From Yoonia sp. (GTDB lineage: Bacteria; Pseudomonadota; Alphaproteobacteria; Rhodobacterales; Rhodobacteraceae): a stretch of DNA of 64,000 nt. Numbering within the stretch: the first letter of the stretch is position 1; each line of letters starts with the position of its first letter. Of the stretch, positions 1,248 to 24,529 are shown one piece after another. The notes under the pieces were generated by a model that worked only from the letters and a program-made list of their open reading frames with translations, had not been told where the DNA came from and made no database searches. The position numbers were made by a program, and so were the translations under genes. Where the stretch lies: the NCBI GenBank assembly GCA_023955335.1, contig JAGSGF010000006.1, positions 1 through 64,000 on the forward strand, in the 5' to 3' direction.

Positions 1248-1886
1248 TTACGGCATGGGGACATCTGTCATGAACTTGGGAACGGAATAGCCAGCTTGCA
1301 CGGCTGGTCGGGCGGCGATGCGCAGATACCAATCCTTAACGTTTGGAAAAGCCTTCAAATCAACCTCTTGCCATTCAAATCGCGACACCCACGGCCAGCA
1401 TGCAATGTCTGCGATAGAATACTCCCCTCGGTTTTCTCCTGCGATGTAATCGCGACCTTCAAGCCGGGTATTCAGCACACCATACAATCGCTGCGCTTCG
1501 ACGGCATAACGTTGCTCAGCGTATTCGGATTTGCCTTTATTGTATTTTACAAAATGATGCGTTTGCCCCAGCATTGGGCCCAAGCCGCCCATTTGCCACA
1601 TCAGCCATTCAACCATGCGCCAATATTCGTCGCCGTTGCATTGGAACTTTTTGTACTTGTCAGCGAGGTACATCATGATCGCGCCGGTCTCCATCAAATG
1701 AATTCCGGTCTCATGATCGACAATTGCGGGAATGCGGTTGTTCGGCGCGATTTTCAGAAAATCCGGGACGAATTGTTCGTCCTTCGTGATGTCTATCGGA
1801 TAAGCCGTGTACGCAATGCCCAGTTCCTCAAGGAGGATGGAGACCTTGCGACCGTTCGGAGTGGTCCATGTATAGAGGTCAATCAT
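1248..1886 (-). CDS. yfcG: Nu-class glutathione S-transferase, YfcG-like
   Basis: 212-residue glutathione transferase. The N-terminal thioredoxin-fold domain begins MIDLYTWTTPNGRK, with Thr9 and Asn11 matching the glutathione-contacting Thr/Asn of E. coli YfcG. It is followed by the conserved PNNRIPAIVD turn, the ETGAI glutathione-binding stretch and the helical-domain motif GGLGPMLGQTHHF near residues 100-112, with SIADIACWPWV near 170. Nu-class members bind two glutathiones and act as disulfide reductases and peroxidases rather than classical conjugating enzymes. It is the last gene of the minus-strand aromatic-acid block, 65 bases after a second GST gene. A role in that pathway, for example protection or ether cleavage, is inference from position only. 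Confidence 0.88.
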   Translation of the reverse strand: MIDLYTWTTPNGRKVSILLEELGIAYTAYPIDITKDEQFVPDFLKIAPNNRIPAIVDHETGIHLMETGAIMMYLADKYKKFQCNGDEYWRMVEWLMWQMGGLGPMLGQTHHFVKYNKGKSEYAEQRYAVEAQRLYGVLNTRLEGRDYIAGENRGEYSIADIACWPWVSRFEWQEVDLKAFPNVKDWYLRIAARPAVQAGYSVPKFMTDVPMP

Positions 1887-1951: not shown

Positions 1952-2896
1952 TCACATTACGTCTATCCGGTACCCGGATCGCGGAAAATGGACGCAGACG
2001 GTTCCCACATCTTCAGCGGTGCGCTCGATTACAACTGTCTCTGCATCGGCGAAACGGATCTTCCCTGCCACAGGCTGCTCGCCGCCATTCACGTCGGGAC
2101 TGATGGTCACCGGTTGCCCGACCTGAAGGCCTTGAGGCTCATGTGCAGCCACACCCGTATTGGCGGCCGGTTGCATATCTTTGGCGCGCGCGATGGCATC
2201 TTCTGGTTGCATTGTGCTGGACGTGCCATGGCCGATTGCACGCACGTTGTCTTCCCACCGGACGAGGTCAGCGAACTCGGACAGAAACGACGGCCCATCG
2301 GCCCAGCGGCCACGCAAGAACCAAATGACGTGGTAGAATTGCGCATCGATCGCGGCAGGTTCTGACCCCAACAAGAACGGGCGTCCATCCGCCAGCTGCG
2401 CGTTAAGCCAAGACAAGGGCGCACGCATTTGGGCGACGAGATGCGGGAGCTCCGCATTCGCCTTTTTTAACGCTGCCGCCCAGTCCTCGCCCAGATAAAG
2501 CCGTCCCCGATCTGCGGCGAAATCTTTGTCCAGACTATCTCCGGCAGTCCCCAAGACATGCCGTACCGTCTGATCGAACAAGGGACCGTCTGTCCACCGG
2601 CTGAGGCACCACATCAAACCATGTTCGGACGTGGGCATGAACGACGGGGCGGGATAACGCCGCTCAAGTTCGCGGATGATGCATTGGCTGTCGCAATAAA
2701 TGTCTGCATTGATCTGCATGACAGGTGTCCGCCGATAGCCCCCCGTAAGAGCAGTTAGCATCGGTTTGGGCAGAATGCGCGGGATCGCGACGCTGCGCCA
2801 CGTAAGGCCCTTGATGCCAAAAGCCACGCGCACTTTTTCAGCGACGGGCGATTCCGGATAGGCGTGAAAAATAATTTCTGATGTCGGGTCAGACAT
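1952..2896 (-). CDS. glutathione S-transferase family protein with C-terminal extension
   Basis: 314 residues. The N-terminal about 80 residues form a GST thioredoxin-like domain (FHAYPESPVAEKVRVAFGIKGL, then YRRTPVMQINADIYCDSQCI) and residues about 90-225 a GST-type helical domain. From about residue 240 there is an extension of about 75 residues (GLQVGQPVTISPDVNG... ending SGYRIDVM) that looks like a small beta-rich domain, longer than an ordinary GST. The gene starts 17 bases after the tautomerase gene stop, so it is probably co-transcribed with the aromatic-acid genes. The substrate is unknown. GSTs beside lignin-derived aromatic pathways can be beta-etherases or glutathione lyases, but nothing in the sequence decides this. 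Confidence 0.75.
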   Translation of the reverse strand: MSDPTSEIIFHAYPESPVAEKVRVAFGIKGLTWRSVAIPRILPKPMLTALTGGYRRTPVMQINADIYCDSQCIIRELERRYPAPSFMPTSEHGLMWCLSRWTDGPLFDQTVRHVLGTAGDSLDKDFAADRGRLYLGEDWAAALKKANAELPHLVAQMRAPLSWLNAQLADGRPFLLGSEPAAIDAQFYHVIWFLRGRWADGPSFLSEFADLVRWEDNVRAIGHGTSSTMQPEDAIARAKDMQPAANTGVAAHEPQGLQVGQPVTISPDVNGGEQPVAGKIRFADAETVVIERTAEDVGTVCVHFPRSGYRIDVM

Positions 2897-2913: not shown

Positions 2914-3996
2914 TTAGGATGGCGGACTTTGATCCGTTTGGACAGCGGGGAAGACAAAACCATCCATTAACTTTCGGGCAGTGCGCAGAACCTCTGTGCG
3001 CGTGATGCGCCCGTTGGTCGTGTGGGCGATAATTGTCATCTCACCTGTCGGATGTTCAATAGACAACACGCTGGGGGACCCGGTGCCCACAACCGCCAAG
3101 CCATCCGCGACCGTGCCACGGGTCAGGCAGGCGGTCGCAACGCTGACGGCACCCAGAACCCCGATGGCGCGGTGGCAGCTGTGCGGGATAAAGGTGCGTG
3201 TTCCAATGGCGCCACCATTCAGGGCCGGCGCGATCATCGTCATTTTTGGAACGGTTTTGTTGCGGACATCGCCAAGGTTCATCATCTGACCGGCGATAAG
3301 GCGGATCGCTTCGAGACGGTCGCGCAGGGATTGATTGGCGTCAAGGTCCGCAGGGTCTTCGGCACCTGTAAGACCCACGTCAGCCGCACGCAAAACGACG
3401 CAGGGCATGCCATTGTCAATCATCGTAACTTCAACGCCGTTGATGGTATCGAGCGGATTCCCGGTTGGAAGAAGCGCGCCACAACTGGATCCAGCCGTGT
3501 CCTCAAATGCAAGAGGTAAGGCGGCCGCATGGCCGGGTACGCCATCAATACGCGCATCGCCTGCGTAGCTGACTTTCCCGCTAGGCGTGGCGACGCGAAC
3601 TGTGGCGATTTGATCGGTGTTTTGCATGAAAATACGCACGGTTGTCTCACCGGACTGGGCACGAACCAATCCCCGTTCAATGGCAAAGGGACCAACACCG
3701 GCGAGGATATTACCGCAGTTTTGTGCAGAAGTGGCGCGGGCTTCATCGACGACAACCTGCAGGAACAGATAGGTCACATCAACCCCGACTTGCAGAGACG
3801 GTCCGACAACAGCGACCTTTGATGAAAGTGGATCGCCGCCGCCCATGCCGTCGATTTGGCGCGGGTCGGGCGAGCCCATGATCGACAACAGCAACGAGTC
3901 TCGTTCAGCGGGCTCGGCGGGCAAGTCAGATGCAAGGAAATAACCGCCCTTGGACGTGCCGCCGCGCATCCACATGCAGGGGATTCCGTCAGACAT
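2914..3996 (-). CDS. galD: 4-oxalomesaconate tautomerase (PrpF family)
   Basis: 360 residues of the PrpF/DAP-epimerase fold. The signature MRGGTSKGG lies at residues 10-18, [16 protein letters not shown] at about 49-64, and a conserved Cys at 94 (AQNCGN). PrpF members shift double bonds in small tricarboxylates. GalD of Pseudomonas interconverts the keto and enol forms of 4-oxalomesaconate, and PrpF itself isomerises aconitate. The neighbours (aldolase, hydratase, ring-cleavage enzyme) favour the GalD role. Its start overlaps the end of the aldolase gene by 8 bases, indicating tight translational coupling. The GalD assignment over another PrpF-type isomerase rests mainly on context. Confidence 0.88.
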
Positions 3997-4660
3997 ATTT
4001 CAAGCCCGCAGCGTCCAACTGACCGCGCATGTCATACATATCAAGGCCGAGTTCCCCCTCTGCAAACCGCGCGCGTTTGTTTTTCTCATTGGTCGTGCGT
4101 TTTTGGGCGGCGGCCAGTACATTGGCGGCATCAGACTGTTTGACCACACAAACGCCATCGTCATCAGCAACAATCACGTCGCCCGGGGCTATGGCAGCCC
4201 CCGCGCAGGTGATCGGTATATTTACCGATCCGAGGATCTCTTTGACGGTCCCTTGGGCACAAATTGCCTTGGACCAGACCGGAAACCCCATGGCTTCAAG
4301 ATCGCGCACATCGCGCACGCCCGCGTCGATGATCAGCCCGCGACAGCCGCGTGCCATCGCAGAGGTCGCCAAGAGATCACCAAAGTAGCCCGCATCCGAT
4401 GGTGCGGTCGTGCCCAGCACCAAGATGTCGCCCGCCTGTATTTGTTCAATCGCGACATGCAACATCCAGTTGTCGGCGGGCGGCGCGAGGATAGTAACGG
4501 CGGACCCTGCAATCGACGCGCCGCGATAGATTGGGCGCATGTAGCTGGCAAGCAAACCGGTCCGGCCTTGGGCCTCGTGGACAGTTGCAACACCCGCCTT
4601 TGCAAGACCGTCAATAATGGCCGGATCGGCCCGCGGAATGTTTTGGACAACGACGTTCAT
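3989..4660 (-). CDS. galC: 4-carboxy-4-hydroxy-2-oxoadipate aldolase (RraA-like class II aldolase)
   Basis: 223 residues, cleaving 4-carboxy-4-hydroxy-2-oxoadipate (CHA) to pyruvate and oxaloacetate; the family also has oxaloacetate decarboxylase activity. The RraA/HMG-CHA aldolase core is clear: [24 protein letters not shown] spans about residues 94-117, with the Arg116-Asp117 pair used for substrate and divalent metal binding. The start is set at the ATG of MNVVVQN because AAAGGA lies about six bases upstream; a frame extending six codons further has no such site. It is the last step of the protocatechuate 4,5-cleavage and gallate routes, placed between the dioxygenase and tautomerase genes. 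LigK and ProA are synonyms for the same activity. Confidence 0.9.
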
Positions 4661-4661
4661 A

Positions 4662-5612
4662 TCAATCCTTTGGTACAAGCGGCGGGGTACCGTGGGTGTG
4701 GAAGGTCTCGATTGTCTTAAGGCCCCACGCTTGGCCCTTTTTGCGTTCGGTTTCCGTCCAGATTACGGGCTCCCAATCGGGCGCGAGGATCAGGCGTGCG
4801 CCGGAATTGGCCAGTTCAATCCGGTTGCCTGCAGGTTCCCAAACATAAAGAAAAAACGTGCCTTGGATGGCGTGCTTGTGCGGTCCTGTTTCAATATGCA
4901 CCCCGTTTTCAAGGAAAATATCCGCCGCGCGCAGGATGTCTTCGCGCTGGTCAGTGGCGTAAGTCAGGTGGTGAAAACGCCCGTCCGCGTTGCCGTGTTC
5001 TTCGGTACAGGCCAGATCATAGGTCTTGTTGTTTACGGTAAACCACGCGCCGCCCGTGCGTCCGTTGTCGAGTTGGATCATCTCGGTGACGCGGCTTCCA
5101 AGGCAGGTTTCCATAAAACGGCGAAATTCGGATACGTCGGTGGCCAGCAGATTCAGGTGGTCGATCCGCCGAGGGCAAACCCCGCGCCCATGATAGCGTT
5201 GGGCGATATTCTTCAGGGCGGGCTTTTCTGCTTCGGGGGCGACGTAGCGGTTTGTATCCCAATAGATTTCAAACGTATGATTGAAGGGGTCTTTGAAGCG
5301 GAACGCGCGCCCATGACCCGCGTCGCCGTCCATCCAGCCAATCACGTCGTATTCACTGGCCTCAATCGTCTTGACCCGTCGCTCCAGTGCCTCCTCGGAT
5401 GCCGCCCGATAGGCAATATGGCTGACCCCTGTCGTGTGATGGCGGGTCAGTTTCAGGCTGTGGTGCTCGTAATCATCGAACGCGCGCAAATAAGCGCTGT
5501 CGCCGATTTGTTCGGTCACAGTCAGGCCATAGACGCGGGTGAAAAAATCCAAAGATGCATCAAACTGATCGGTGTAAAGTTCGACGTGACCAAGGTGTGC
5601 AATGTCATTCAT
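4662..5612 (-). CDS. VOC-superfamily (type I) extradiol ring-cleavage dioxygenase
   Basis: 316 residues with two vicinal-oxygen-chelate modules (about 1-135 and 145-290), the layout of catechol 2,3-dioxygenases. The Fe(II) facial triad is visible in the second module: His152 (RIDHLN), His214 or 215 (FHHLTY) and Glu266 (NRIEL), with numbering close to XylE. The start is [10 protein letters not shown]; its ATG overlaps the hydratase stop as ATGA. Pathways that feed GalB/C/D normally use an unrelated type II enzyme (LigAB, DesB or GalA). No such gene is in this window, and there is no LigC or LigI either, so the product that fits the neighbours is 4-oxalomesaconate itself. That points to gallate (or a close relative) as substrate, by inference. 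Confidence 0.88.
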
Positions 5613-6343
5613 AGCGTATCCACCGTGCGGGGGAATACCGATTGGAACCCTTCGGCGTATTGGCAATTGTGCCCGCCCGACTGGCCACCGGAATTGCGTT
5701 TGAAATGGTTGGCGCGCTGTTGGGCGACCCGTGTGTAGAACTCCCAAAGGTGTTCTTGACCCTGCATACATTCGATGGCTGCGCGCTTGTAATCCCAGAC
5801 CGATGTAATGTCTAGGAAAGTATCCGGCTTCCAGTCCATCTGTTCAGTTTGATGCGGTTCGAACAGATAAAGCTGCGGTGCGCCGAGGACTTTTTCGCCC
5901 GGGTTGTGGCCCCATGCCTGCGCGATCATCCGCGCCTCAAGCGTGACCTGCGTGGTATAAGCGTGATCGGTATTATAAGGATCATGTTTGGAATGGCTGA
6001 GCATGAAATCCGGCTGCACCGCACGGATCACGTCGACAAGTTTGTATTTGTCGTCGCGGGTCAGTTCCAACGGGTAATCGCCGAGGTCAAAGAACTGGAT
6101 GTCATGGACGTCGAGCGCTTTGGCGGCATTCTCGGCCTCGATCCGCCGTCCGGTTTTGACCTTTTCCAGCGTCATGCCTTGTTGTTTCCATAGCTTCGCG
6201 CTTTCGCCGCGTTCACCGTAGGACAGGCACACCACCGTGACCTCGTAACCCTGTTGTCGGTGCAAGGCGATCGCCCCGCCACAGCGCCAGACGAAATCAG
6301 CGGAATGGGCCGAGATGACGAGGGCGGATTTGGCATCAGACAT
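5609..6343 (-). CDS. galB: 4-oxalomesaconate hydratase (LmbE/PIG-L family, GalB-like)
   Basis: 244 residues of the LmbE-like zinc hydrolase fold. The usual AHPDD motif appears as SAHSADFVWRCGGAIALH (His13, Asp16), which is the form I recall for Pseudomonas GalB rather than for sugar deacetylases. YGERGES and the later HSKHDPYNTDH zinc-ligand stretch are also present. GalB hydrates enol-4-oxalomesaconate to CHA, an activity that the unrelated LigJ supplies in sphingomonads. A GGAGG box lies six bases before the ATG. It starts 15 bases after the TRAP large-subunit gene and overlaps the dioxygenase start by four bases, so transport and catabolism genes appear to be one transcript. Confidence 0.9.
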   Translation of the reverse strand: MSDAKSALVISAHSADFVWRCGGAIALHRQQGYEVTVVCLSYGERGESAKLWKQQGMTLEKVKTGRRIEAENAAKALDVHDIQFFDLGDYPLELTRDDKYKLVDVIRAVQPDFMLSHSKHDPYNTDHAYTTQVTLEARMIAQAWGHNPGEKVLGAPQLYLFEPHQTEQMDWKPDTFLDITSVWDYKRAAIECMQGQEHLWEFYTRVAQQRANHFKRNSGGQSGGHNCQYAEGFQSVFPRTVDTL

Positions 6344-6358
6344 AAGGGCCTCCAGTGG

Positions 6359-7663
6359 TCAGTTGAACATGGTGTCGGGCACAAGCAGCGAGATTTGCGG
6401 GAAGGTGATAAGGATGATGAGCGTCACGAACATTGCCAGCCAAAACGGCGCCACGCCGCGGAAAATATCAGCGAGCGACACGTTTGGTGCCACAGATTTC
6501 ACGATGAACACGTTGATGCCCACGGGGGGAGAGATTAACCCCATTTCAAGCGTCAGCACCACGAGAACCCCAAACCAGATCGGATCGATTCCAAGTTCCA
6601 GCACCACCGGAAAGAAGATCGGTAGCGTCAGCACGAGCATCGCGAACCCTTCGAGGAAGCAGCCCAGCACCAGATACACGAGCAACATCAACCCGAGTAT
6701 GCCGAGCACTGGCAAGTCCAGCGCCACGAGGGTTTCGCCGACATATGACGGCAAATGGCTAAGGGCGAGGAATGGGTTGATCATATGCGCCGCGATGAGA
6801 ATAAGCATGACCGTGGCCGTTGTGACGACTGAACTGCGGGCCGCATGCCAGAAATCTGCGAACGAAAGTCTGCGCATCACGACGCCATAAATTATCACCA
6901 GTCCGGCACCAACGCCCGCGGCCTCGACAGGTGAAAATAAACCACCGTAGATACCGCCGATCGTGACGACGATGACACCAAGGATCGGGAATGCCCCCCC
7001 TAACGCGCGGCGTTTTTCGTCCCATGTTGTAACGGGACCGCGTGGCCCCGCAGAGGGGCGGAAATAGCAGATGATCGACACGGTAAGCAGGAACATCATC
7101 AGCAGCAATAGGCCGGGCAAAATGCCCGCGAGGAACAGCCTTCCGATGGATTGTTCGGTCAGAATAGCGAAGATCACGAACCCTGTGGAGGGCGGGATCA
7201 GAATGCCCAATGTGCCGCCTGCTGCAACAACGCCTGTAGACAGGCGCGGGTCGTATTTAAAACGCTCCATTTCGGACAAAGATACTTTGCCCATGGTCAG
7301 CGCGGACGCGACGGATGATCCCGACAGTGCCGCGAACCCGCCACAGCCCACAACCGTTGCCGATGCCAACCCGCCACGGATGTGACCGATCATGGCGTAG
7401 GCTGCATTGAACAATTGGCGGCTCATGCCTGTGGCGGTGGCCACATTGCCCATCAGGATGAACAGGGGAACAACGACGAGCTCGGACGAGGATGCGATGG
7501 TGAAGGTTTCGGACCCCAAAAGCCCGATGGCCGCATCCCAGCCGCGTACAGTCCAGATACCGATAAAACCCACAAAGAACATTGCGAAGGCGACAGGAAT
7601 GCGCAAGATCAACAGCACCAAAAGGCCAGCTATCCCGATAAATCCAATTGCTTCGATGCTCAT
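6359..7663 (-). CDS. dctM: TRAP transporter large permease subunit (DctM family)
   Basis: 434 residues, almost entirely hydrophobic, with the repeated DctM features: FILMGNVATATG near residue 70, the GGCGGFAALSGSSVASALTMG segment, GILIPPS near 155, and a C-terminal TLEMGLISPPVGINVFIV. It carries solute and Na+ across the inner membrane with the binding protein and small subunit encoded just upstream. Its ATG overlaps the small-subunit stop (ATGA), and the GalB gene follows 15 bases after its stop. Placement inside the ring-cleavage operon suggests the solute is the aromatic acid that the operon degrades. Confidence 0.93.
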   Translation of the reverse strand: MSIEAIGFIGIAGLLVLLILRIPVAFAMFFVGFIGIWTVRGWDAAIGLLGSETFTIASSSELVVVPLFILMGNVATATGMSRQLFNAAYAMIGHIRGGLASATVVGCGGFAALSGSSVASALTMGKVSLSEMERFKYDPRLSTGVVAAGGTLGILIPPSTGFVIFAILTEQSIGRLFLAGILPGLLLLMMFLLTVSIICYFRPSAGPRGPVTTWDEKRRALGGAFPILGVIVVTIGGIYGGLFSPVEAAGVGAGLVIIYGVVMRRLSFADFWHAARSSVVTTATVMLILIAAHMINPFLALSHLPSYVGETLVALDLPVLGILGLMLLVYLVLGCFLEGFAMLVLTLPIFFPVVLELGIDPIWFGVLVVLTLEMGLISPPVGINVFIVKSVAPNVSLADIFRGVAPFWLAMFVTLIILITFPQISLLVPDTMFN

Positions 7664-8172
7664 GTTGCGGGGGCCTTTTCGGTGCGGACATCGCGGCCCG
7701 ACAGGGTAAGTTCAGCGGCGCGCAAGAGCATGCCCACAGACGTCAGAATGGAAAGCCCGGCCAATCCCCATTGGACCCATGCCTTGGGCAGACGCAACAG
7801 GTTGGTAGACAGGTTCAGCATCACACTAAGCTTGGCGCTTTCGAGAATGGCATAGGCGATGAATGCGAAAATCAGCGCGCCCAAAAGGGCGGCGATAATG
7901 TCGATCCAACGGTTCAGCCATGCAGGGTAGCGCGGTTCAAACAAGTCTACCGCGATATGCCCACCGTCACGGTCACACATGGCCATGCCACCGAACACCA
8001 ATATGACCATTCCCATCGTGATCATGTCCTGACTGCCATAGAGCGGCGAGCCAAGCGCGCGACCCACGACGTCTGTCAAGATAACAGCGACCTCGACCAA
8101 CAAGCCGAGGGCGCCGATGTTTGCGGACAGACCAATCAGCCTGTCCGCCCAAGTGCGCAGACGCGCGATCAT
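7660..8172 (-). CDS. dctQ: TRAP transporter small permease subunit (DctQ family)
   Basis: 170 residues with four predicted membrane helices. The DctQ core is visible as VGRALGSPLYGSQDMITMGMVILVFGGMAMCDRDGGHIAVDLF (about residues 35-78); the polar HIAVDL pattern is the family hallmark. It starts three bases after the binding-protein gene stop and overlaps the large-subunit start by four bases. It has no separate function expected beyond assembling with the large subunit. Confidence 0.92.
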   Translation of the reverse strand: MIARLRTWADRLIGLSANIGALGLLVEVAVILTDVVGRALGSPLYGSQDMITMGMVILVFGGMAMCDRDGGHIAVDLFEPRYPAWLNRWIDIIAALLGALIFAFIAYAILESAKLSVMLNLSTNLLRLPKAWVQWGLAGLSILTSVGMLLRAAELTLSGRDVRTEKAPAT

Positions 8173-8175
8173 GAT

Positions 8176-9156
8176 TTAGTTGGCCTGCATCGCAGCAAGC
8201 GTATCTGCGCCGCCGACACCGTCAACGTAGGCACCCGTCACCGACGCGATAGCTTCGGCGAATACCGCAGCCTCTGCTTGGGTTAGATCAACGAAGGTGT
8301 TGTCCGACAGGGTGCGGGCCGTGGCAACGCCTGCATCCGCAGTCGCGTTCCACGCATCTTCCGCACTTTGGGAAACGGTCTGATTGGACGGGCTGTCCAG
8401 CGCTGCTTTGGCTTCATCACTAAGCGCATCATAAGTGCCTTTGGTCATGACTGCATAAAACGACAAGCGGCCAAGGTTTGCACCGAACGTATAACTGTCA
8501 GCGACTTCGTCGAGTTTAAAGTCATTGAGCGTGGATGAACCGGTGATGACACCGTCGATCAGACCCGTCTGCAACGCGTTGTAGACTTGGTTAATCGGCA
8601 TTTGCACCGGCGTCGCACCCAGCGCTGAGGCAACATCAGCGGCGGTTGCTCCGGCAACGCGGATTTTCAAGCCGGCCAGATCGGCTGGCGTGCGGATCAC
8701 CGCGTCCCGCATGATGAACACGTTGGGTTCTGACGTCCAAAGGGCCACCGGCACCGTGCCGACAAATTCACCGGCAAGGTGGTCGTCGTAGGCCGCCCAC
8801 ATCGCAGCATATCCAGCGTCTTCATTGGTCAGCGTGCCAGGAAGCTCAACAATCATCGTCTGTTCGAACTGCGAAGACGTGTAGCCCGGAAGGCCCCACG
8901 CCATATCTGCCACGCCTTGGACAACGCGGATGTATTGCTCAACCGGACCTGCGCCCAACTCTCCGCCGTGATAGCCGCGCACAGTAACTTCGCCGGCTGT
9001 GGCTTCAGACAAAATGGTGTTCAGCTTTTCCATCACGGATTCGTTCACAGTGTGAAACGGCGGTGTGAAGTTGGCAAAGCTTAGCTCTTCAGCCGCTACG
9101 GGCATTGCAGCGGCAAATGCTACGGCGGATGCCGCGATAAGGTTCGTAAATTTCAT
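8176..9156 (-). CDS. dctP: TRAP transporter substrate-binding protein (DctP family)
   Basis: 326 residues from MKFTNLIAAS, preceded by GGGAGG; a frame extending 22 codons further is ignored for lack of a site. The signal peptide ends near AMPVAAEE. The mature protein is a DctP-fold periplasmic receptor; ADLAGLKIRVAGATAADVASALGATPVQMP contains the conserved Arg that binds the solute carboxylate, followed by the family's QTGLIDGVI segment. The solute cannot be read from sequence. The position between a LigM-like demethylase and the ring-cleavage genes suggests a methoxylated or hydroxylated benzoate. A GC-rich hairpin precedes the gene (9192-9218). Confidence 0.92.
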   Translation of the reverse strand: MKFTNLIAASAVAFAAAMPVAAEELSFANFTPPFHTVNESVMEKLNTILSEATAGEVTVRGYHGGELGAGPVEQYIRVVQGVADMAWGLPGYTSSQFEQTMIVELPGTLTNEDAGYAAMWAAYDDHLAGEFVGTVPVALWTSEPNVFIMRDAVIRTPADLAGLKIRVAGATAADVASALGATPVQMPINQVYNALQTGLIDGVITGSSTLNDFKLDEVADSYTFGANLGRLSFYAVMTKGTYDALSDEAKAALDSPSNQTVSQSAEDAWNATADAGVATARTLSDNTFVDLTQAEAAVFAEAIASVTGAYVDGVGGADTLAAMQAN

Positions 9157-9191
9157 GTCTGTACCTCCCAGTGTCGACATTTCGATTGTTT

Positions 9192-9218
9192 GGCGGGCGC
9201 CCACCCAGAACGCCCGCC
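9192..9218 (-). other. GC-rich intercistronic hairpin between demethylase and TRAP genes
   Basis: GGCGGGCG pairs perfectly with CGCCCGCC across an 11-base loop. In the transcribed (minus) direction no T-run follows, so it is unlikely to be an intrinsic terminator for this operon. It may separate or stabilise the ligM-like and dctP messages. On the plus strand a run of six T follows, but no plus-strand gene needs terminating here. Confidence 0.55.
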
Positions 9219-9234
9219 TCATTTTTTGGCGACG

Positions 9235-10635
9235 TTAATCGCCCACGGTTCTCCAACTGTCCGCATAATTTTCACGGGCATCTTTTGCGTAAGGCGTGTC
9301 AGACACGCGCACGCGGATTTCGGTTTGCTTATGGGCCTCGGCAGATGTTTTGCCGGTTTGTTCAGGCTCGCCCCACTTCATGGTCAGCACATCGCCGACC
9401 TCAACAGATTGATCGACAACACCAAGGCTAAGGAAACAGCGTTCATTCCAGCTATAGCCGTTGAACATGCTCATCCCGATCATTTTGTCGCCCTGCATGA
9501 CCATGTCGGCTGACGAGGATGCGTAGTTGGGCTGTGGGAAATCAATCCATTTATACGGCGTGCCTTGCTCAAGCCCACTGGCGATAATTTTGAGAACATC
9601 TTCTTTGTTCCACTCGAATGTTACCTTTTTGCGGTTTGGGCCATCCTTCATTTTGGTCAGCGCGGCCTTGCCGATAAAGTCGTCTTTTTTCCAACCGATG
9701 TAAAAGCCATATCCCAACTCGAACGGGTTTACGTAGTAGTCCGAAATATCGTCCGACACGTAGCTGCCACCGATCGACCCTGCGGCCTCGTAGCTGTCAG
9801 CACCAAGCCAGTCGCGGTACTCCTGCATCATGCCGTCCCCGGTGTAGATGCCAGGCAAGGGGGATGGAATCCAACCGGATTCCAAGGTGTTGGTCGAATA
9901 AGCGCGACTGCCAACCTGCACGAGGTTTACACCGATGTCGCGTGCAGCCTGTTGGATCGTGGATTGAATGTAATGCTTGTCTGCGTACGGCCCCCAGATT
10001 TCCAGACCAGGCGCGCCTGCCATGCCGTGACGCAGCGCTTGTACTTTCTTAGAGCCGATGTTGATTTCGTTGACATGGAAGAACGGGATGTCTGGCACTG
10101 GGCCACCGTTGATTTTCTCAAAGATGGCGGGCGCGTCGGGGCCTTGGATTTGGAACCGGTAGTGCGTACGCATGATCCGCTCACCATCGGGGCGGCTGTT
10201 GGACCGTGGATCGTGGAACAGACGGACTTGCCATTCGCCACGAGCGGCTTGAAAGCGGACCCAATTTGCCGTTGGCGCACGACCGACTAGGATGAACTTG
10301 TCCTCTCGTTCGCGGAAAATGATCATATCGCCAATGACGTGACCTGCGGGCGTCACAGGCACAAAATGCTTGGCGCGGTTCAGCCCGAAATTGCCAAAGC
10401 CGTTGATCCCGACATAGGCCAGAAACGGCTCTGCATCAGGACCCTCCACGATCAGCTCGTCCATATGGTGAGACTGGTCAAACAACACTGCATGATCGCG
10501 CCATGCGCCCTGTTCGTCGCGCCAGTTAGTGAATTCGGGGGCCACGACGGGGTAAACATACATCCCGATCTTGGAGTTGCGCAGCATTTCGACCGGATTG
10601 GCGTGCAGCGCGATAAGTGTGCTGAGACTAGACAA
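9235..10635 (-). CDS. ligM: tetrahydrofolate-dependent aryl O-demethylase, LigM/DesA-like
   Basis: 466 residues of the GcvT/aminomethyltransferase family, strongly like Sphingobium LigM: EMLRNSKIGMYVYPVVAPEF (about 16-35), VLFDQSHHM (about 50-58), RHGMAGAPGLEIWGPY (about 200-215), LESGWIPSPLPGIYTGD (about 252-268), MSMFNGYSWNE near 390 and EAHKQTEIRVRVS near the C-terminus. LigM moves the methyl of vanillate or 3-O-methylgallate to tetrahydrofolate; DesA does the same for syringate. The exact substrate here is open. Followed by GalB/C/D-type genes, the simplest reading is 3-O-methylgallate to gallate. No folate-recycling genes (metF, ligH) are nearby. It is the first catabolic gene after the regulator. 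Confidence 0.9.
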   Translation of the reverse strand: MSSLSTLIALHANPVEMLRNSKIGMYVYPVVAPEFTNWRDEQGAWRDHAVLFDQSHHMDELIVEGPDAEPFLAYVGINGFGNFGLNRAKHFVPVTPAGHVIGDMIIFREREDKFILVGRAPTANWVRFQAARGEWQVRLFHDPRSNSRPDGERIMRTHYRFQIQGPDAPAIFEKINGGPVPDIPFFHVNEINIGSKKVQALRHGMAGAPGLEIWGPYADKHYIQSTIQQAARDIGVNLVQVGSRAYSTNTLESGWIPSPLPGIYTGDGMMQEYRDWLGADSYEAAGSIGGSYVSDDISDYYVNPFELGYGFYIGWKKDDFIGKAALTKMKDGPNRKKVTFEWNKEDVLKIIASGLEQGTPYKWIDFPQPNYASSSADMVMQGDKMIGMSMFNGYSWNERCFLSLGVVDQSVEVGDVLTMKWGEPEQTGKTSAEAHKQTEIRVRVSDTPYAKDARENYADSWRTVGD

Positions 10636-10655: not shown

Positions 10656-11387
10656 TTATGTTGACGAAACCAAAGCCAAACCGGGCACGTTTTTCGTGAG
10701 TATCGGTTGAGCTTCGGTCAGATAATTGAAGTTAATCAGCGCGAGGCGCGCATGTTCGCGGGCCAGAGCCTCGGCGCGTGTGCCTTCGCGGTTTGCGATG
10801 GCTTCCATAATGGCGCGGTGTTGGCGTTGTGCATGGCGCAGCGACTCGATGAAATCAGGGATCCCGGCCTGCTCGCTTAGAAACGATGACGGTGACGCGA
10901 GGGGCAGCAGGGTCATCCGCTCAATCTCTCGGCGGATCAGGGGGCTGCGCGGGAACTCAGCAAGAAGCTGATGAAAACGGGCGTTGTGCGTAACGTAGCT
11001 GTCAAAATCAAGGCCATCGGGATGGGCAATAGCAATATCGATTAGGTCCAACACGGCGTTGGCGCTCTCAAGGAGATTAGCGTCCACGCCGCGTTCCGCT
11101 GCCATGCGCGCGGCGGTGCCTTCGATGACGCCGCGAATTTCAATGGCATCGGCGATGTCTTGGCGCGTGAACGTGGCGACGCGGCAGCCGCCCGTTTCGA
11201 TCCGTTCGAGCAAGCCCTCGGCAACAAGGCGGTCCATGGCTTGGCGCAGTGGGGTGCGAGACGTGCCAAGTTGATTGGCCACCGCAACCTCTGACAACCT
11301 CTGCCCACCCGAGAATGCGCCGCTCATGACCAAAGAACGAAGGCCCAGCAAGGCGCGGTCAAGTTGGCTGAGATTGCGATCGGTCAC
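10656..11387 (-). CDS. GntR-family (FCD subfamily) transcriptional regulator
   Basis: 243 residues. The N-terminal winged helix (about 8-75) contains LSEVAVANQLGTSRTPLRQAMDRLVAEGLL, the typical GntR recognition pattern. The C-terminal all-helical FCD domain (about 85-220) carries the expected His and Asp metal or ligand positions (for example NARFHQLLAE). Its stop lies 20 bases before the demethylase start, so it heads that operon and likely senses a pathway acid. Two TTGTATACAA-like boxes lie 54 and 127 bases upstream, between it and the divergent TRAP operon, and are plausible operators. Confidence 0.9.
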   Translation of the reverse strand: MTDRNLSQLDRALLGLRSLVMSGAFSGGQRLSEVAVANQLGTSRTPLRQAMDRLVAEGLLERIETGGCRVATFTRQDIADAIEIRGVIEGTAARMAAERGVDANLLESANAVLDLIDIAIAHPDGLDFDSYVTHNARFHQLLAEFPRSPLIRREIERMTLLPLASPSSFLSEQAGIPDFIESLRHAQRQHRAIMEAIANREGTRAEALAREHARLALINFNYLTEAQPILTKNVPGLALVSST

Positions 11388-11724: not shown

Positions 11725-11950
11725 GCCTTTTGTGCCCACGTGTCCAATCTGTGCCGGTCACTTGTGGGTACATGCTTGTGTATTCAGCATCATGTTCTAA
11801 AGTACCCTTGGATCATCGGGCATGTGCTGCCTTGGGCCGTACTGGAGGGTGCGGTTTCTGGCTAAGGCGCAATCCCGAATATCCAAAAATGTACCGATGC
11901 GACCGCCCCGGATACCTGGGGCAGTCGAACGTTATTCCTTGGGAGGAAAT

Positions 11951-13045
11951 ATGAAAAATTCTATCAATCGCAGAAAGTTTCTGCGCGGTTCGGCTGTTGC
12001 CGGCGCCGCAACGCTTGCCACACCTGCACTTGCAGAGAGTCACGGCGTAACAATCAAAATGCAGGCAGCATGGGGTGGCGGTATCTTCCTCGAAAACGCC
12101 CAATCTTTTGCCAACCGCGTTAACGAGATGTCCGGCGGATCGCTGACCATCGAAGTGCTGTCGGTCGACTCGGTCGTCAAGACCAGCCAGATGCAAGACG
12201 CGGTTCACCGCGGCGTTCTAGATGCAGCCCACTATGTGTCCGCCTACTGGTACGGCAAATCCAAATCCGCTTCGCTGTTTGGCACAGGCCCATGCTTTGG
12301 CTGGTCGAGCCAGGAAATGCTTGGCTGGATTCATGCTGGCGGCGGCCAAGAGCTGTTTGACGAGCTGATGGCAGATCTGCGCTTGAATGTTGTGTCCTTC
12401 TTTAACTCACCTATGCCGGCTCAGCCGCTGGGGTGGTTCCAGCAAGAAATAACAGATGCCTCGCAGATGGAGGGCCTGAAGTACCGGACCGTTGGTCTGG
12501 CTGCTGACGTTATGCTTGAAATGGGCATGTCTGTTGTTCAGCTTCCGGGTGGTGAAATCCAGCCTGCAATGAAATCCGGCCTGATCGACGCGGCCGAATT
12601 CAACAACCCAACGTCCGACCGTGACTTTGGCATGCAGGACGTTTCCAAAAACTACATGTTGGCATCCTACCACCAGTCACAGGAATGTTTTGAGGTGACC
12701 ATCAACAAGGACAAGTTCAACAGCCTGTCCGATGAGCACAAAGCAATCATCAAAAACGCATCAATGGCTGAAAACTCCGGCTTCTACTGGGGCAACACCA
12801 AGCGCTATTCTGATGATCTGATCAAGCTTCAGGAACAGGACGGCGTTACGGTTTCGCGTACACCAGAATCGGTTATGCAAGCCCAGTTGGTTGCTTGGGA
12901 TTCGGTTTCCAGCCGCATCGCTGCAGACGATCCGTTCTTTGCCAAAGTGATGGAATCGCAGAAGACCTACGCTAAGGAAGTCATGGGTTATCTCAACCTC
13001 AACCAGCCTGACTACAAGCTGGCTTATAATCACTACTTCGGCTAA
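11951..13045 (+). CDS. dctP: TRAP substrate-binding protein, TakP-like, Tat-exported
   Basis: 364 residues; the start follows GGGAGG at 11941. The N-terminus NRRKFLRGSAVAGAATLATPALA is a twin-arginine signal, unusual for DctP proteins but common in the TakP-like branch. The mature part shows YWYGKSKSASLFGTGPCFG, GWFQQEIT, LKYRTVGLAADVMLEMG (carboxylate-binding Arg) and LIDAAEFNNPTSD, matching the layout of alpha-keto-acid receptors such as TakP. The solute is unknown, probably a carboxylic or oxo acid. It is the first gene of a plus-strand operon with Q, M and amidase genes; a short perfect hairpin follows its stop. Confidence 0.9.
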   Translation: MKNSINRRKFLRGSAVAGAATLATPALAESHGVTIKMQAAWGGGIFLENAQSFANRVNEMSGGSLTIEVLSVDSVVKTSQMQDAVHRGVLDAAHYVSAYWYGKSKSASLFGTGPCFGWSSQEMLGWIHAGGGQELFDELMADLRLNVVSFFNSPMPAQPLGWFQQEITDASQMEGLKYRTVGLAADVMLEMGMSVVQLPGGEIQPAMKSGLIDAAEFNNPTSDRDFGMQDVSKNYMLASYHQSQECFEVTINKDKFNSLSDEHKAIIKNASMAENSGFYWGNTKRYSDDLIKLQEQDGVTVSRTPESVMQAQLVAWDSVSSRIAADDPFFAKVMESQKTYAKEVMGYLNLNQPDYKLAYNHYFG

Positions 13046-13103
13046 TCGCATAGCGATTTTGCAGTGTCCGGGTGCCTCTTTGGCGTCCGGGCATTGTACA
13101 CTT

Positions 13104-13123
13104 GGGACAAAGAATATTGTCCC
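13104..13123 (+). other. intercistronic hairpin after dctP
   Basis: GGGACAA and TTGTCCC pair perfectly (7 bp) around the loop AGAATA, 59 bases after the binding-protein stop and 29 bases before the small-subunit start. No T-run follows. Such a structure could protect the 3' end of a dctP message so that receptor is made in excess over permease. Confidence 0.5.
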
Positions 13124-13151
13124 ACTGATCTGTTAGGGGAGCAACAGGCAC

Positions 13152-13742
13152 ATGAAATTCGTATACGCCATAGAAGGCCTCAGCCTTTGGGTAGGACGCG
13201 CCTTTGGGTGGTGCATCCTGATCCTGACGCTGTCAGTTTCCTATGAAGTCTTTGTCCGCTATGTCTTGAACGCGCCCACTGTCTGGGCCTTTGACATGAT
13301 GGTCCAAATGTATGGGGCGCTGTTCTTGATGTGTGGCGCCTATGCGCTGGCGCAAGACACCCACGTACGGGCCGATGTTGTTTACAGGCTGTTCCCGGTC
13401 AAGGTGCAGGCGGGTCTGGATTTTGCTCTCTACTTCCTGTTCTTCTTTCCCGGCATTATGGCTTTGGTCTGGTTCGGGTATGAAATCGCCTCCGACAGCT
13501 GGCGCTATAAAGAGGTCAGCTTTAACAGCCCGGCCAGTATCCAGATTTACTTTTTCAAATCGCTCATCCCGCTGTCTGGTGGCTTGCTGATGATCCAGGG
13601 CGTTGCCGAACTGGTACGCTGTGTGATTGCCATGCGCACTGGTGTCTGGCCCGAACGACTGGCGGACGTAAAAGAAACCGAAGACCTACTGACGGCCGCT
13701 GATCTCGATGCGATACGCGCCGTAGTCCCAGGTAAAAAATAA
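13152..13742 (+). CDS. dctQ: TRAP transporter small permease subunit (DctQ family)
   Basis: 196 residues, with GGGGAG about 12 bases before the ATG. Four hydrophobic segments are visible, with DctQ landmarks YEVFVRYVLNAPTVWAFDMMVQMYGALFLMCGAYALAQDTHVRADVVY (about residues 33-80), including the polar HVRADV motif. The C-terminal 30 residues are charged and cytosolic. It lies between the receptor and large-subunit genes of the same operon. Confidence 0.92.
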   Translation: MKFVYAIEGLSLWVGRAFGWCILILTLSVSYEVFVRYVLNAPTVWAFDMMVQMYGALFLMCGAYALAQDTHVRADVVYRLFPVKVQAGLDFALYFLFFFPGIMALVWFGYEIASDSWRYKEVSFNSPASIQIYFFKSLIPLSGGLLMIQGVAELVRCVIAMRTGVWPERLADVKETEDLLTAADLDAIRAVVPGKK

Positions 13743-13772
13743 GCCGCTCTGCGCTTCAAGAAAGTTATAAAG

Positions 13773-15140
13773 ATGTCAAATCCCGAAGTCGCACTGATTA
13801 TGCTTGGGCTATTTATTCTCCTTGTTCTGCTTGGATTTCCGATTGCCTTTACCCTGCTCGCCATGGGCGTTGGTTTTGGGTATTATGCCTATCACCAAGG
13901 GCACCCGATCGAAACATTATCGGATGTTTTCAACAACAATATCTTCTATCTGGTGAATCAGAACACCTATTCGGTGATGGAGAATCCGACCCTTGTGGCG
14001 ATTCCGCTGTTCCTTTTCATGGGCTACGTGGTCGAACGCGCCAACATCGTCGATAAACTGTTTTTCTCGCTTTACATGGCTGCGCGCAACCTGCCGGGCA
14101 GCCTTGCGATTGCAGCCCTTGTGACCTGCGCGGTCTTCTCTACCGCATCGGGCATCGTGGGCGCGGTTGTGACCTTGATGGGCCTGCTTGCCTTTCCAGC
14201 GATGGCCAATGCCAACTACGATAAAAGCTTTGCTGCTGGTGTGATCTGTGCAGGGGGTACGCTGGGCATCTTGATCCCGCCGTCGATCATGCTGATCGTC
14301 TATGCCGCTATCGCTGATCTGTCGCCGTTGCGCCTGTACGCCGCGGCGGTCTTTCCGGGTATGCTGCTGGCCGGTCTGTATATTGTCTATGTGATCCTGC
14401 GCGTGTGGTTCAACCCAGAGCTGGCCCCAAAGCCAACCATGAAAGACGTTCCACCCCCAAAGGAAATCTACAAAGACCTGCTGTTCAGCTTCGTGCCGCT
14501 GACCGTGCTGATTGCCCTTGTTCTTGGCTCTATCTTGGGCGGCCTTGCAACACCTGCAGAAGCGGCTGCGATGGGCGCGTTGGGCGGCATGGTTCTGGCT
14601 GTGCTTTACCGTTCAATGACGTGGACCAAGCTTAAGGAAAGCGTGTTTCTGACCGCAAAAGCGACGGCCATGGTATGTTGGTTGTTTGTCGGTTCATGGA
14701 CCTTCGCTTCGGTGTTTTCATATCTCGGCGGCCACGATCTTATTGCACATTGGGTTGGCGGTATGGATCTGGAGCCTTGGGAATTCCTTGTTATGGCGCA
14801 GCTCATTATCTTCTTGCTGGGTTGGCCACTGGAATGGTCCGAAATCCTGATCATTTTCGTGCCTATCTTCCTGCCGCTCCTCGAAGTTTTCGGCGTGAAC
14901 CCGTACTTCTTTGCCATGCTGATTGCGTTGAACCTGCAAACCTCGTTCCTTACCCCGCCGATGGCGATGTCGGCCTATTATTTAAAAGGGGTGCTGAAAG
15001 ACCAGATCGAGCTGATGGATATTTTCCGGGGGATTATGCCCTATCTGGGCATCGTGATCCTGACGATGTGTCTAATGTACGCGTTCCCTGGTATTGCGCT
15101 GTGGTTCCCTGATTACCTCTTTGGAGAATACATTCCGTGA
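13773..15140 (+). CDS. dctM: TRAP transporter large permease subunit (DctM family)
   Basis: 455 residues with about a dozen hydrophobic segments. DctM features include IPLFLFMGYVVERA near 75, a conserved STASGIVGAVVTLMGLLAFPAM segment, CAGGTLGILIPPSIMLIVYA near 160 and NLQTSFLTPPMAMSAYYLKG near 390. The longer N-terminus with an extra periplasmic loop (HPIETLSDVFNNN) is typical of permeases paired with TakP-like receptors. The amidase gene starts inside its stop codon (GTGA), so the amidase is translationally coupled to the transporter. Confidence 0.93.
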   Translation: MSNPEVALIMLGLFILLVLLGFPIAFTLLAMGVGFGYYAYHQGHPIETLSDVFNNNIFYLVNQNTYSVMENPTLVAIPLFLFMGYVVERANIVDKLFFSLYMAARNLPGSLAIAALVTCAVFSTASGIVGAVVTLMGLLAFPAMANANYDKSFAAGVICAGGTLGILIPPSIMLIVYAAIADLSPLRLYAAAVFPGMLLAGLYIVYVILRVWFNPELAPKPTMKDVPPPKEIYKDLLFSFVPLTVLIALVLGSILGGLATPAEAAAMGALGGMVLAVLYRSMTWTKLKESVFLTAKATAMVCWLFVGSWTFASVFSYLGGHDLIAHWVGGMDLEPWEFLVMAQLIIFLLGWPLEWSEILIIFVPIFLPLLEVFGVNPYFFAMLIALNLQTSFLTPPMAMSAYYLKGVLKDQIELMDIFRGIMPYLGIVILTMCLMYAFPGIALWFPDYLFGEYIP

Positions 15141-16477
15141 TAAAAGAGGCGTATAAGCTCACGGCAACCGAGGCACTGGCGCTCTGCGCGATAGGCAAGC
15201 TAACATCTGTTGAATTGGTTAAGTCCTGCCTTGCGCAGATGACAGCAACCGACGACGCGATAAAAGCTTGGGCCTATCTCGATCCAGAGGCCGCCATTTT
15301 GCAGGCGACAGAGTGTGACCGTATCCGCAAGGCAGGCCTGGCTATCGGTCCGCTGCACGGCATTCCTGTGGGGTTAAAGGACATCATCGACACCGCTGAT
15401 ATGCCCACGGCACGCGGCACCCCGATATTCAGGGGGCGGCGAACGGATCACGATGCCCGCCTTGTTGAGCTGTTGCGCGATGCCGGTGCTGTGATCATGG
15501 GCAAGACCGTCACAACAGAGCTGGCCTTTGTCCACGCCAACGAGACACGCAATCCGCACAGCCCCGATCACAGCCCCGGTGGTTCCTCGAGCGGTTCGGC
15601 GGCGGCGGTCGCGGCACATCACGTTCCCCTTGCCATCGGGACCCAAACCAACGGCTCTGTGATCCGGCCCGCATCTTATTGCGGAACGTTCGGCTTCAAG
15701 CCAACACGCGGTGTCGTGTCGCGCACGGGGCTGTTGCAAACCTCTGTCTCGCTCGATCAGGTCGGCTGCTTTGGTCGCTCGCTGGCAGATGTGGCGCTGC
15801 TGACGGATGTGATCAGCGGATATGACGAACGGGACGCGACCAGCTTTGCCCGCCCGCGCCCTGATATGTCGGCAGGCGCAGCAGAGGATGTGCCCGCCAC
15901 CCCCGAACTTGTCTGGTTCAATCTGCCCTTTAACGATCGGCTGTCTGATGACGCCAAAGAAGGGCTGGACGCGGTGCTTGATATTCTTGGGCCGCAGGTC
16001 ACCAAAATGGAGCCCGCCGATACGCTTTCAAACCTTGTCGCGGTGCAGGCGCGTATCCATGAATATGAAATTTGCAAGCATCAGGCAGAGCTATTTGACG
16101 GTAACTGGGATGAGATCAGTGAAACCCTGAAACCCGTCATCACACGTGGACGACAGATCACCCAAGCGGAATATGAAGACGCGCTTTTAGTCAAAGCCTC
16201 AGCAGAGAAATTTTTTGCTGACTTCTTTTTGGAATTTGATGCTATCATTGCCCCTTCAGCTGCTGGCGAGGCACCAACGTTTGGTACAGGTACGGGCGAC
16301 CCGATCTTTTGCACGCTCTGGACGCTCGCAGGTCTACCCTGTGTAAGCCTGCCTTTGTTGGTTGGAGACACTGGTTTGCCGATCGGCGTTCAACTGATCG
16401 GCCCTGCTGAAAAAGACAATCGCCTGCTGCGCACTGCGCGTTGGCTGCAAACCCAGCTGGCGAACGCGGCAGAATAA
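15137..16477 (+). CDS. amidase signature family hydrolase
   Basis: 446 residues, GTG start overlapping the TRAP permease stop. The Ser-cisSer-Lys triad is present: Lys in VGLKDIIDTADMPT (about residue 77), the glycine/serine-rich SPGGSSSGSAAAVAA (about 148-162) and the Ser of TNGSVIRPASYCGTFGFKPT (about 173). The family hydrolyses amides, ureido acids or carbamates; the substrate is not readable. Coupling to a TRAP transporter suggests the imported solute carries an amide or ureide that is split on entry, with the two dehydrogenases downstream acting on the released acid. Confidence 0.9.
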   Translation: MIKEAYKLTATEALALCAIGKLTSVELVKSCLAQMTATDDAIKAWAYLDPEAAILQATECDRIRKAGLAIGPLHGIPVGLKDIIDTADMPTARGTPIFRGRRTDHDARLVELLRDAGAVIMGKTVTTELAFVHANETRNPHSPDHSPGGSSSGSAAAVAAHHVPLAIGTQTNGSVIRPASYCGTFGFKPTRGVVSRTGLLQTSVSLDQVGCFGRSLADVALLTDVISGYDERDATSFARPRPDMSAGAAEDVPATPELVWFNLPFNDRLSDDAKEGLDAVLDILGPQVTKMEPADTLSNLVAVQARIHEYEICKHQAELFDGNWDEISETLKPVITRGRQITQAEYEDALLVKASAEKFFADFFLEFDAIIAPSAAGEAPTFGTGTGDPIFCTLWTLAGLPCVSLPLLVGDTGLPIGVQLIGPAEKDNRLLRTARWLQTQLANAAE

Positions 16478-16494
16478 CGAAAAAGGACAAATAC

Positions 16495-16689
16495 ATGTCA
16501 TACGGAATTAAACTTGTGATGGGGCTGATCGGGACTGCACTTTTGTGCATCTTCATCGGGGGATTGTCGCAAAGTATCTCATCGGGCTTTGCAGGCTTTA
16601 AGGGCGGAGCGCCCTTCATGATCATCGCGATCATCGTTTGCTGCATGGCGGTATATGATTTCTGGGACGAATGCGTCCGCAAGAAATGA
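16495..16689 (+). CDS. small two-helix membrane protein, unknown function
   Basis: 64 residues from MSYGIKLV, preceded by AAAGGA. Two hydrophobic helices (about 5-25 and 37-55) flank a short loop GGLSQSISSGFAGFKGG. I do not recognise a family. It is 17 bases after the amidase stop and its TGA overlaps the ATG of the next gene, so it is embedded in the operon. It could be an accessory to transport, but nothing shows this. Confidence 0.7.
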   Translation: MSYGIKLVMGLIGTALLCIFIGGLSQSISSGFAGFKGGAPFMIIAIIVCCMAVYDFWDECVRKK

Positions 16690-17645: not shown

Positions 17646-17666
17646 TTCTCGAAAAGGAACCTCGAC

Positions 17667-20934: not shown

Positions 20935-20938
20935 GAGG

Positions 20939-21739: not shown

Positions 21740-21760
21740 GGGGCAGATCCTTTTCGGGGT

Positions 21761-22210: not shown

Positions 22211-22237
22211 AGTTGTAGCCCTTACTTAGCTGCGCTT

Positions 22238-24502: not shown

Positions 24503-24529
24503 GAGATATCGCTAAAAGTTGGTGATGGC
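24503..24529 (+). repeat. IS256 left inverted repeat
   Basis: Begins GAGATATCGC and ends AAAGTTGGTGATGGC; pairs with the right repeat at 21 of 27 positions. Confidence 0.8.

Follow-up and report, generated by a model that had tools for sequence, protein, structure and literature searches.

The DNA analysed here, referred to as the window, is the first 64,000 nucleotides of contig JAGSGF010000006.1 of Yoonia sp. (assembly GCA_023955335.1), and it carries a minus-strand operon in which genes for an O-demethylase, a TRAP transporter and the lower gallate pathway surround a gene for a two-domain VOC protein. Our analysis of this gene, its genome and its relatives suggests that the encoded enzyme probably opens gallate to 4-oxalomesaconate (OMA), in place of the type II dioxygenases GalA and DesB. 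The literature found, as far as its available parts go, assigns the bacterial opening of gallate to type II enzymes, to which a VOC enzyme would be non-homologous. A direct conversion of gallate to OMA by the VOC protein had been put forward in a sequence-only reading of the window; the gene context lends this proposal good support, its substrate and reaction being predictions.

Lower pathway genes and type II dioxygenases

The three components of the gal lower pathway, GalD, GalB and GalC/LigK, are all encoded in a single run on one strand (Table 1). The best PDB match of the GalD protein is a (4E)-oxalomesaconate delta-isomerase, while the PIG-L protein, for which NCBIfam gave no match, finds 5cgz far ahead of its next PDB match (E 6.8e-12). 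On these assignments, GalD, GalB and LigK together would take OMA as their input. The LigM-type demethylase passes model NF047885, is the only copy found in the genome, and fails the model of the syringate O-demethylase DesA (NF047633, 554.8 against 800). Since the gene is single-copy and its product fails the syringate model, 3-O-methylgallate and vanillate are the better candidate substrates; the sequence-only reading had coupled the operon to 3-O-methylgallate or syringate demethylation, and it is the former that is favoured and the latter that is weakened.

The assembly amounts to 3.03 Mb in 83 contigs and is 95% complete. PF02900, the LigB family of the type II enzymes, has no match in the whole genome, and thus no linked type II dioxygenase was found there that would pair with these genes in place of the VOC protein; the same model matched in four of 14 control genomes. 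That a type II enzyme lies hidden in another part of the genome was therefore rejected as an explanation, with the proviso that about 5% of the genome may be missing. Pfam scans of 40 open reading frames (ORFs) of the window, at E up to 0.001 and at 1e-10, revealed no LigB, Gfo/Idh-type (LigC) or amidohydrolase-type (LigI) domain. The earlier statement that GalA/DesB, LigAB, LigC and LigI all lie outside the window holds for these ORFs, and of the genome-wide search that accompanied it the LigB part came back empty, the LigC-type and LigI-type domains having been sought in the 40 window ORFs only. Elsewhere in the same genome, PcaH and PcaG score above their cut-offs and adjoin a gene resembling 4-hydroxybenzoate 3-monooxygenase (PobA-like); protocatechuate, which LigM would make from vanillate, therefore has an ortho route.

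Sequence and predicted structure of the VOC protein

In Pfam, the VOC protein matches only PF00903 (in two stretches) and PF13669. Its best NCBIfam model is TIGR03211, catechol 2,3-dioxygenase, where it falls below the cut-off (300.9 against 320.2), and a relative from Thermus oshimai passes (332.2); for TIGR02295, homoprotocatechuate 2,3-dioxygenase (HpaD), it scores 196.6 against 321.4. The predicted structure (mean pLDDT 82.6, pTM 0.86) retrieves AphC (7q2a) and 3lm4 as the best Foldseek matches, both with a TM of 0.87. By sequence, the best PDB match is 9wgj (E 2.8e-102, about 50% identity), deposited as 'Catechol 1,2-dioxygenase'; this entry is not named in the literature found and is absent among the 50 Foldseek matches listed (library to 8 April 2026).

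The active-site residues were judged from a sequence alignment to the homoprotocatechuate 2,3-dioxygenase of Brevibacterium fuscum, with which the window protein shares the two-domain VOC fold at 27-28% identity. His152, His215 and Glu266 align to its metal ligands His155, His214 and Glu267, and Asn154, His247 and Tyr256 align to Asn157, His248 and Tyr257. The metal triad named in the sequence-only reading is thereby confirmed, with His215 as the second ligand (given there as His214/215) when the start is set at position 5612. All six residues are kept in each of the 84 loci described below. The two enzymes differ at His200, Arg243 and Arg293 of the reference, where the window protein has Tyr198, Thr242 and Gly293. 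Tyr198 occupies the column of the catalytic His200 in 84 of 84 loci as well as in the proteins of Roseomonas, Methylobacterium, Nonomuraea and T. oshimai and in 9wgj, while the remaining 12 type I rows of the comparison carry His. Since tyrosine stands where those enzymes have the catalytic histidine, the acid-base step must differ, and this replacement is an unexpected change in the clade. Asn195, Lys196, Gln294 and His305 are common to the Tyr198 rows shown in the alignments; Arg290 is likewise common to them, yet it also occurs in four His-type rows. The structural model has low confidence at 131-140, 241-250, 271-280 and from 291 onward, so that residues 242-247 and 305 are poorly placed.

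A tree of 35 rows, of the kind that had been proposed for placing the protein among other VOC dioxygenases, gathers the 23 Tyr198 rows, 9wgj included, into one group with a support of 100/99 and apart from the catechol 2,3-dioxygenases, some outgroup branches being long. By fold, the VOC protein is thus predicted to be a type I dioxygenase and, because the catalytic histidine is missing, it is placed as a variant of that class. The TIGR03211-type catechol 2,3-dioxygenases (two of Thermus, L099 and L103; one of Rhodococcus, L100; 3lm4; and AphC, 7q2a), which provide the best NCBIfam model and the structural matches, share 36-43% identity with the window protein, possess the catalytic histidine and fall outside the Tyr198 group. 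An ordinary catechol 2,3-dioxygenase was rejected as the identity of the window protein, which lies below the TIGR03211 cut-off and whose gene adjoins genes for OMA metabolism; the His-type Thermus and Rhodococcus relatives instead adjoin genes for acetaldehyde dehydrogenase and 4-hydroxy-2-oxovalerate aldolase.

Relatives and their gene neighbourhoods

Relatives of the VOC protein are encoded in 559 stretches of the genome collection, of which the best 80 were kept; with four hand-picked plasmid loci these make up 84 loci, 83 of them distinct because L005 and L060 represent the same plasmid. The 39 of the best 80 that were aligned to the window protein are 77-90% identical to it. The relatives carry labels of Rhodobacteraceae, Rhizobium, Agrobacterium, Pantoea, Erwinia and others, the nearest being metagenome-assembled genomes labelled Yoonia and Octadecabacter, which makes a marine, roseobacter-type host probable for the window; similar gene sets are thus spread over bacteria of plants, soil and the sea. 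Of 289 genomes sampled evenly across the class, only nine have a VOC match at E 1e-40 (five at 71-100% identity, the window included, and four at 43-46%), and the gene is therefore patchy.

When matches covering less than 40% of the query are left out, homologues of GalD occur in 62 of the 84 loci, of LigK in 61, of the PIG-L protein in 57, of DctM in 20 and of LigM in 16, which means that the VOC gene is often found without LigM. A cultured relative, Thetidibacter halocola (L069), has both LigM and galBCD in its locus. In 40 loci, the VOC gene has homologues of GalB, LigK and GalD on its own strand no more than 1.5 kb away, and 63 loci contain one or more of the three in the stretch, an arrangement beyond chance. 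Furthermore, the same VOC clade occurs with OMA genes in Pseudomonadota, Actinomycetota and Deinococcota: Nonomuraea (Actinomycetota) has homologues of GalB, LigK, GalD and the VOC protein in a row, and T. oshimai (Deinococcota) has genes for the VOC protein, a PIG-L protein and a 4-carboxy-4-hydroxy-2-oxoadipate aldolase within 4 kb, with no GalD match in the stretch. On the Agrobacterium plasmid pAt (walnut), a tannase gene (PF07519, 438 bits) directly follows the gene set. Tannase frees gallate. In the A. vitis and Shinella loci, a carboxylesterase gene follows the set at the tannase's place. Ten genes downstream of GalD comprised one carboxylesterase and one TIM barrel/HPPD-like gene, the rest being unrelated or without a match.

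Several other neighbours recur or stand out in these loci. A DUF1932 dehydrogenase-like gene is present in 39 of the 84 VOC loci and also in Roseomonas, Methylobacterium, T. oshimai and Nonomuraea, with L002, L004, L005, L098, L106, L107 and L108 among the VOC loci that carry it; none of the 40 scanned ORFs of the window matched DUF1932. In L013, the VOC gene and a formyltetrahydrofolate deformylase gene (PurU, 8842-9816) overlap at the end of the former, a hint that C1-folate metabolism may be tied to O-demethylation. On the T. oshimai plasmid pTHEOS01 (L106), a DUF6282 protein is encoded between the VOC and PIG-L genes (8588-9508). Finally, a TIM-barrel and HPPD-like fusion that recalls 3-dehydroshikimate dehydratase follows the VOC gene set in L063 (11471-13459).

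Linkage of the VOC, GalD and LigB genes

The positions of VOC, GalD (NF033377) and LigB (PF02900) matches were compared in 149 genomes of the window's family, with near defined as 15 kb or less; left out of the counts were one second VOC match of 41% in G039, any GalD match that scored less than 440 bits, and two LigB matches that fell short of the Pfam cut-off. A VOC orthologue (68-100% identity) is present in 24 of these genomes. Among 37 strong GalD genes (at least 480 bits), 15 lie near a VOC gene, seven near a LigB gene and none near both, while among the 33 of 440-480 bits none is near a VOC gene and one is near LigB. A strong GalD gene is present in 19 of the 24 VOC genomes versus 16 of the 125 others (Fisher p 1.9e-10). 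The LigB genes that adjoin strong GalD genes in this sample score 198-277 bits. In G188, a genome in two contigs, the VOC and GalD genes are 0.8 kb apart and there is no LigB match.

Within the family sample, the exclusivity of VOC and LigB is one of local linkage only. Exclusion of LigB from whole genomes by the VOC gene was rejected, as 11 of the 24 VOC genomes have a LigB-family match, six of them above 150 bits (Fisher p 0.25 and 0.58). A set of 50 VOC-bearing genomes, picked from the best 80 for larger contigs and spread, comprises 20 without any LigB-family match and 44 without one above 150 bits, leaving six with such a match. Seven family genomes (G048, G074, G084, G025, G091, G002 and G130) encode a GalD of at least 480 bits and have neither a VOC orthologue nor a LigB-family match.

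Proposed pathway and comparison with known systems

Tannin and syringyl lignin give rise to gallate and its methyl ethers. In the proposed route, the TRAP transporter would import a methoxylated trihydroxybenzoate, and LigM would move the methyl group of 3-O-methylgallate to tetrahydrofolate, leaving gallate. The VOC enzyme, with Fe(II) or Mn(II) held by His152, His215 and Glu266, would bind two neighbouring hydroxyls of gallate and insert O2 between the two carbons that bear them, giving OMA directly; GalD (tautomerase), GalB (hydratase) and LigK (aldolase) would then turn OMA into pyruvate and oxaloacetate. The sequences back the predicted identities of LigM, GalB, LigK and GalD, the putative metal triad, the lack of a type II enzyme among the genes found and the repeated coupling to OMA genes; from these we infer the substrate, the cleaved bond, the metal and the order of steps. 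Because the C3-C4 bond of gallate lies between two hydroxyl-bearing carbons, intradiol and extradiol cleavage of neighbouring diols would yield the same product.

The proposed reaction is that of GalA (Pseudomonas putida KT2440) and DesB (Sphingobium SYK-6), which likewise produce OMA from gallate ahead of GalD, GalB and GalC. Those enzymes belong to the LigB superfamily, whereas the window protein belongs to the VOC superfamily and its genome has no LigB-family match. In the available part of its description, the syringate pathway of Pseudomonas sp. NGC7 (MgaAB, MgaC, MgaD) also represents methoxy-gallate catabolism ending in GalD, GalB and GalC; there the ring is opened by the LigAB-like MgaAB and demethylation is performed by VanAB, whereas the window has LigM and, as proposed here, the VOC enzyme. 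A 2025 paper on syringate catabolism, as far as its text was available, attributes gallate cleavage to GalA and DesB and neighbouring steps to LigAB, LigA2B2 and DesZ. In the part available, AromaDeg assigns gallate dioxygenases to the LigB superfamily. Homoprotocatechuate enzymes appear there in each of the two superfamilies, which sets a precedent for a replacement of this kind. No VOC or type I gallate dioxygenase appears in the titles and abstract openings among the matches listed, a body of literature that leaves out preprints and most subscription papers.

A broader view is that the Tyr198 clade is a separate and widespread class of trihydroxybenzoate ring-opening enzymes that arose within the VOC dioxygenases by a change from His to Tyr, and thus an independent answer to gallate cleavage; we regard this as a tentative and rather doubtful extension. 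Under it, ring opening could dispense with proton transfer aided by a His, perhaps taking an intradiol-like course on the VOC scaffold that still yields OMA, and plant-associated and marine bacteria would employ the enzyme alongside tannase or O-demethylases. If the proposed function is correct, a conserved enzyme in rhizobia, Pantoea and roseobacters could explain gallate use by galBCD genomes that lack LigB, the annotations 'catechol 2,3-dioxygenase' and 'VOC family' of these genes would need correcting, and the clade would offer a natural test of the role of the catalytic histidine in type I dioxygenases.

Weighing the alternatives

A number of observations weigh against gallate opening by the VOC enzyme. 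The loss of the catalytic histidine is expected to slow extradiol cleavage. Of the control genomes E. coli and B. subtilis, one likewise holds a match above the cut-off of the GalD model NF033377, which is therefore not wholly specific, and GalD by itself is no proof of OMA formed from gallate. In 21 of the 84 loci no galBCD gene is present in the stretch, some of these contigs ending early, and Pantoea At-9b is a counter-example in which the VOC gene lacks galBCD within the 19 kb examined; ten neighbours in VOC loci that mostly lack galBCD included transporter parts, an OsmC domain and a formyl transferase, four of the ten having no Pfam match. The pAt tannase, used as a query, matched no other locus among the 84. 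Across the 149 family genomes, VOC presence is not associated with LigB absence (p 0.25), and 15 of the 37 strong GalD genes have neither dioxygenase nearby. Finally, type II genes do occur in the VOC locus of a few relatives: in L049 a LigB gene is accompanied by a LigA-like frame, L068 contains one LigA-like and two LigB matches, and L009 has a partial LigB match at the end of the locus. In Roseomonas (L098, 60% identical), genes for LigA, LigB and an alpha/beta hydrolase immediately precede the VOC gene and VanA/VanB-type genes follow it, an arrangement that resembles the syringate set of NGC7 supplemented by a VOC gene. The replacement is therefore not universal, and by gene content the VOC enzyme is often, though not always, the sole ring-opening candidate in its set.

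The Roseomonas hydrolase gene also bears on the possibility that the VOC enzyme cleaves 3-O-methylgallate to the methyl ester CHMOD, with a hydrolase or isomerase (perhaps a GST) completing the route to OMA and LigM acting on vanillate. Such cleavage to CHMOD is one of the main routes in N. aromaticivorans and in Pseudomonas NGC7, according to the parts of those reports available, and the window has two GST genes just beyond GalD. Its assignment to the window seems unlikely to us, given that the operon genes include no alpha/beta hydrolase and that homologues of the two GSTs occur in just two loci (L006 and L007, for the one next to GalD) and one locus (L006, for the other) of the 84, on which ground the GSTs were rejected as essential isomerases; LigM, too, is present in only 16 of 84 loci, no search having been made for other O-demethylases. 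Comparably improbable is that the VOC protein is a type I protocatechuate 4,5-dioxygenase whose semialdehyde product is oxidized to the level of OMA by an unlinked dehydrogenase. T. oshimai encodes an aldehyde dehydrogenase and a protein annotated as 4-hydroxybenzoate 3-monooxygenase near its set, and these, like the L063 gene that recalls 3-dehydroshikimate dehydratase, also fit protocatechuate, which LigM, going by its family name, yields from vanillate; both observations count against a gallate substrate. The window's genome, however, has a PcaGH pair beside the PobA-like gene, the 40 scanned window ORFs contain neither a LigC-type nor a LigI-type domain, and on pAt the linked tannase gene speaks for gallate.

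The VOC fold is used for many different reactions. The enzyme could accordingly be a metal-dependent isomerase or hydrolase that acts on an intermediate further down the pathway, while some enzyme that escaped recognition opens the ring, and both the Tyr at the catalytic His position and the LigAB genes beside the VOC gene in some relatives would agree with such a role. We consider this highly improbable: the closest models and structures are those of catechol-type dioxygenases, the triad and the Asn154, His247 and Tyr256 positions are invariant across the loci, and the Pfam matches of the operon offer no other candidate for ring opening. Gallate opening by the VOC enzyme is hence the account that we prefer.

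Organization of the operon and other features of the window

The coordinates of the operon genes are given in Table 1. The sequence-only reading had described LigM, the TRAP transporter, GalB, the VOC protein, GalC/LigK and GalD as one overlapped block on the minus strand, and coordinates, strand and overlaps bear this out; its limits of 2914..10635 were drawn too narrowly, missing the GntR/FCD gene at one end and the two GST genes at the other. The GalB gene ends and the VOC gene begins within the same four bases, ATGA, the VOC stop is followed after one base by the ATG of LigK, and the LigK and GalD genes overlap. The listed VOC ORF (4662-5771) begins too far upstream, and the ATG at 5612, giving 316 amino acids, is the likely start. 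The GntR/FCD protein, a homologue of which is found in 18 of the 84 loci, is the probable regulator of the operon. The small permease, for which NCBIfam gave no match and no Pfam scan was made, has homologues in 15 of the 84 loci.

Table 1. Genes of the operon and its flanks, with the evidence for each assignment.
Feature	Coordinates	Strand	Evidence
GntR/FCD-family regulator (probable)	10656..11387	-	Pfam FCD 1.8e-15, GntR 9.7e-14
LigM-type tetrahydrofolate-dependent O-demethylase (vanillate/3-O-methylgallate)	9235..10635	-	NF047885 605.4 vs cut-off 580; PDB 5x1i LigM E 1.6e-154
TRAP solute-binding protein DctP	8176..9222 (ORF; true start probably further in)	-	PF03480 1.3e-33; NF037995 above cut-off
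TRAP small permease	7660..8172	-	Position between DctP and DctM; named by position alone
TRAP large permease DctM	6359..7663	-	PF06808 4.3e-97
GalB-type 4-oxalomesaconate hydratase, PIG-L fold	5609..6343	-	PDB 5cgz E 3.7e-98; PF02585
Two-domain VOC (type I) ring-cleavage dioxygenase, proposed gallate dioxygenase	4662..5612	-	PF00903; His152/His215/Glu266
GalC/LigK 4-carboxy-4-hydroxy-2-oxoadipate aldolase	3989..4660 (ORF to TTG at 4678)	-	TIGR02798 377 vs 304.5
GalD/LigU 4-oxalomesaconate tautomerase	2914..3996	-	NF033377 518 vs 440; PDB 6p3j E 4.4e-146
GST-like protein	1952..2896	-	PF13417; PDB 3ic8 (uncharacterised GST-like) E 1.6e-53
GST-family protein resembling disulfide-bond oxidoreductases	1248..1886	-	GST_N + GST_C; NF010579 best NCBIfam, below cut-off

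Beyond the operon, and divergent from it, positions 11822-18536 of the plus strand encode a second TRAP-like transporter, judged from translations alone, together with amidase-like, 2-hydroxyacid dehydrogenase and 3-hydroxyisobutyrate-dehydrogenase-like genes. On the minus strand, 19270-23395 encodes a DmdA-like protein (NF009133, 371 against a cut-off of 410), an enoyl-CoA hydratase and an acyl-CoA synthetase, and looks like a dimethylsulfoniopropionate (DMSP) demethylation set or a relative of one. A Mutator-family transposase on the plus strand is spread over two overlapping frames (24519-25178 and 25171-25866) and is therefore broken or frameshifted.

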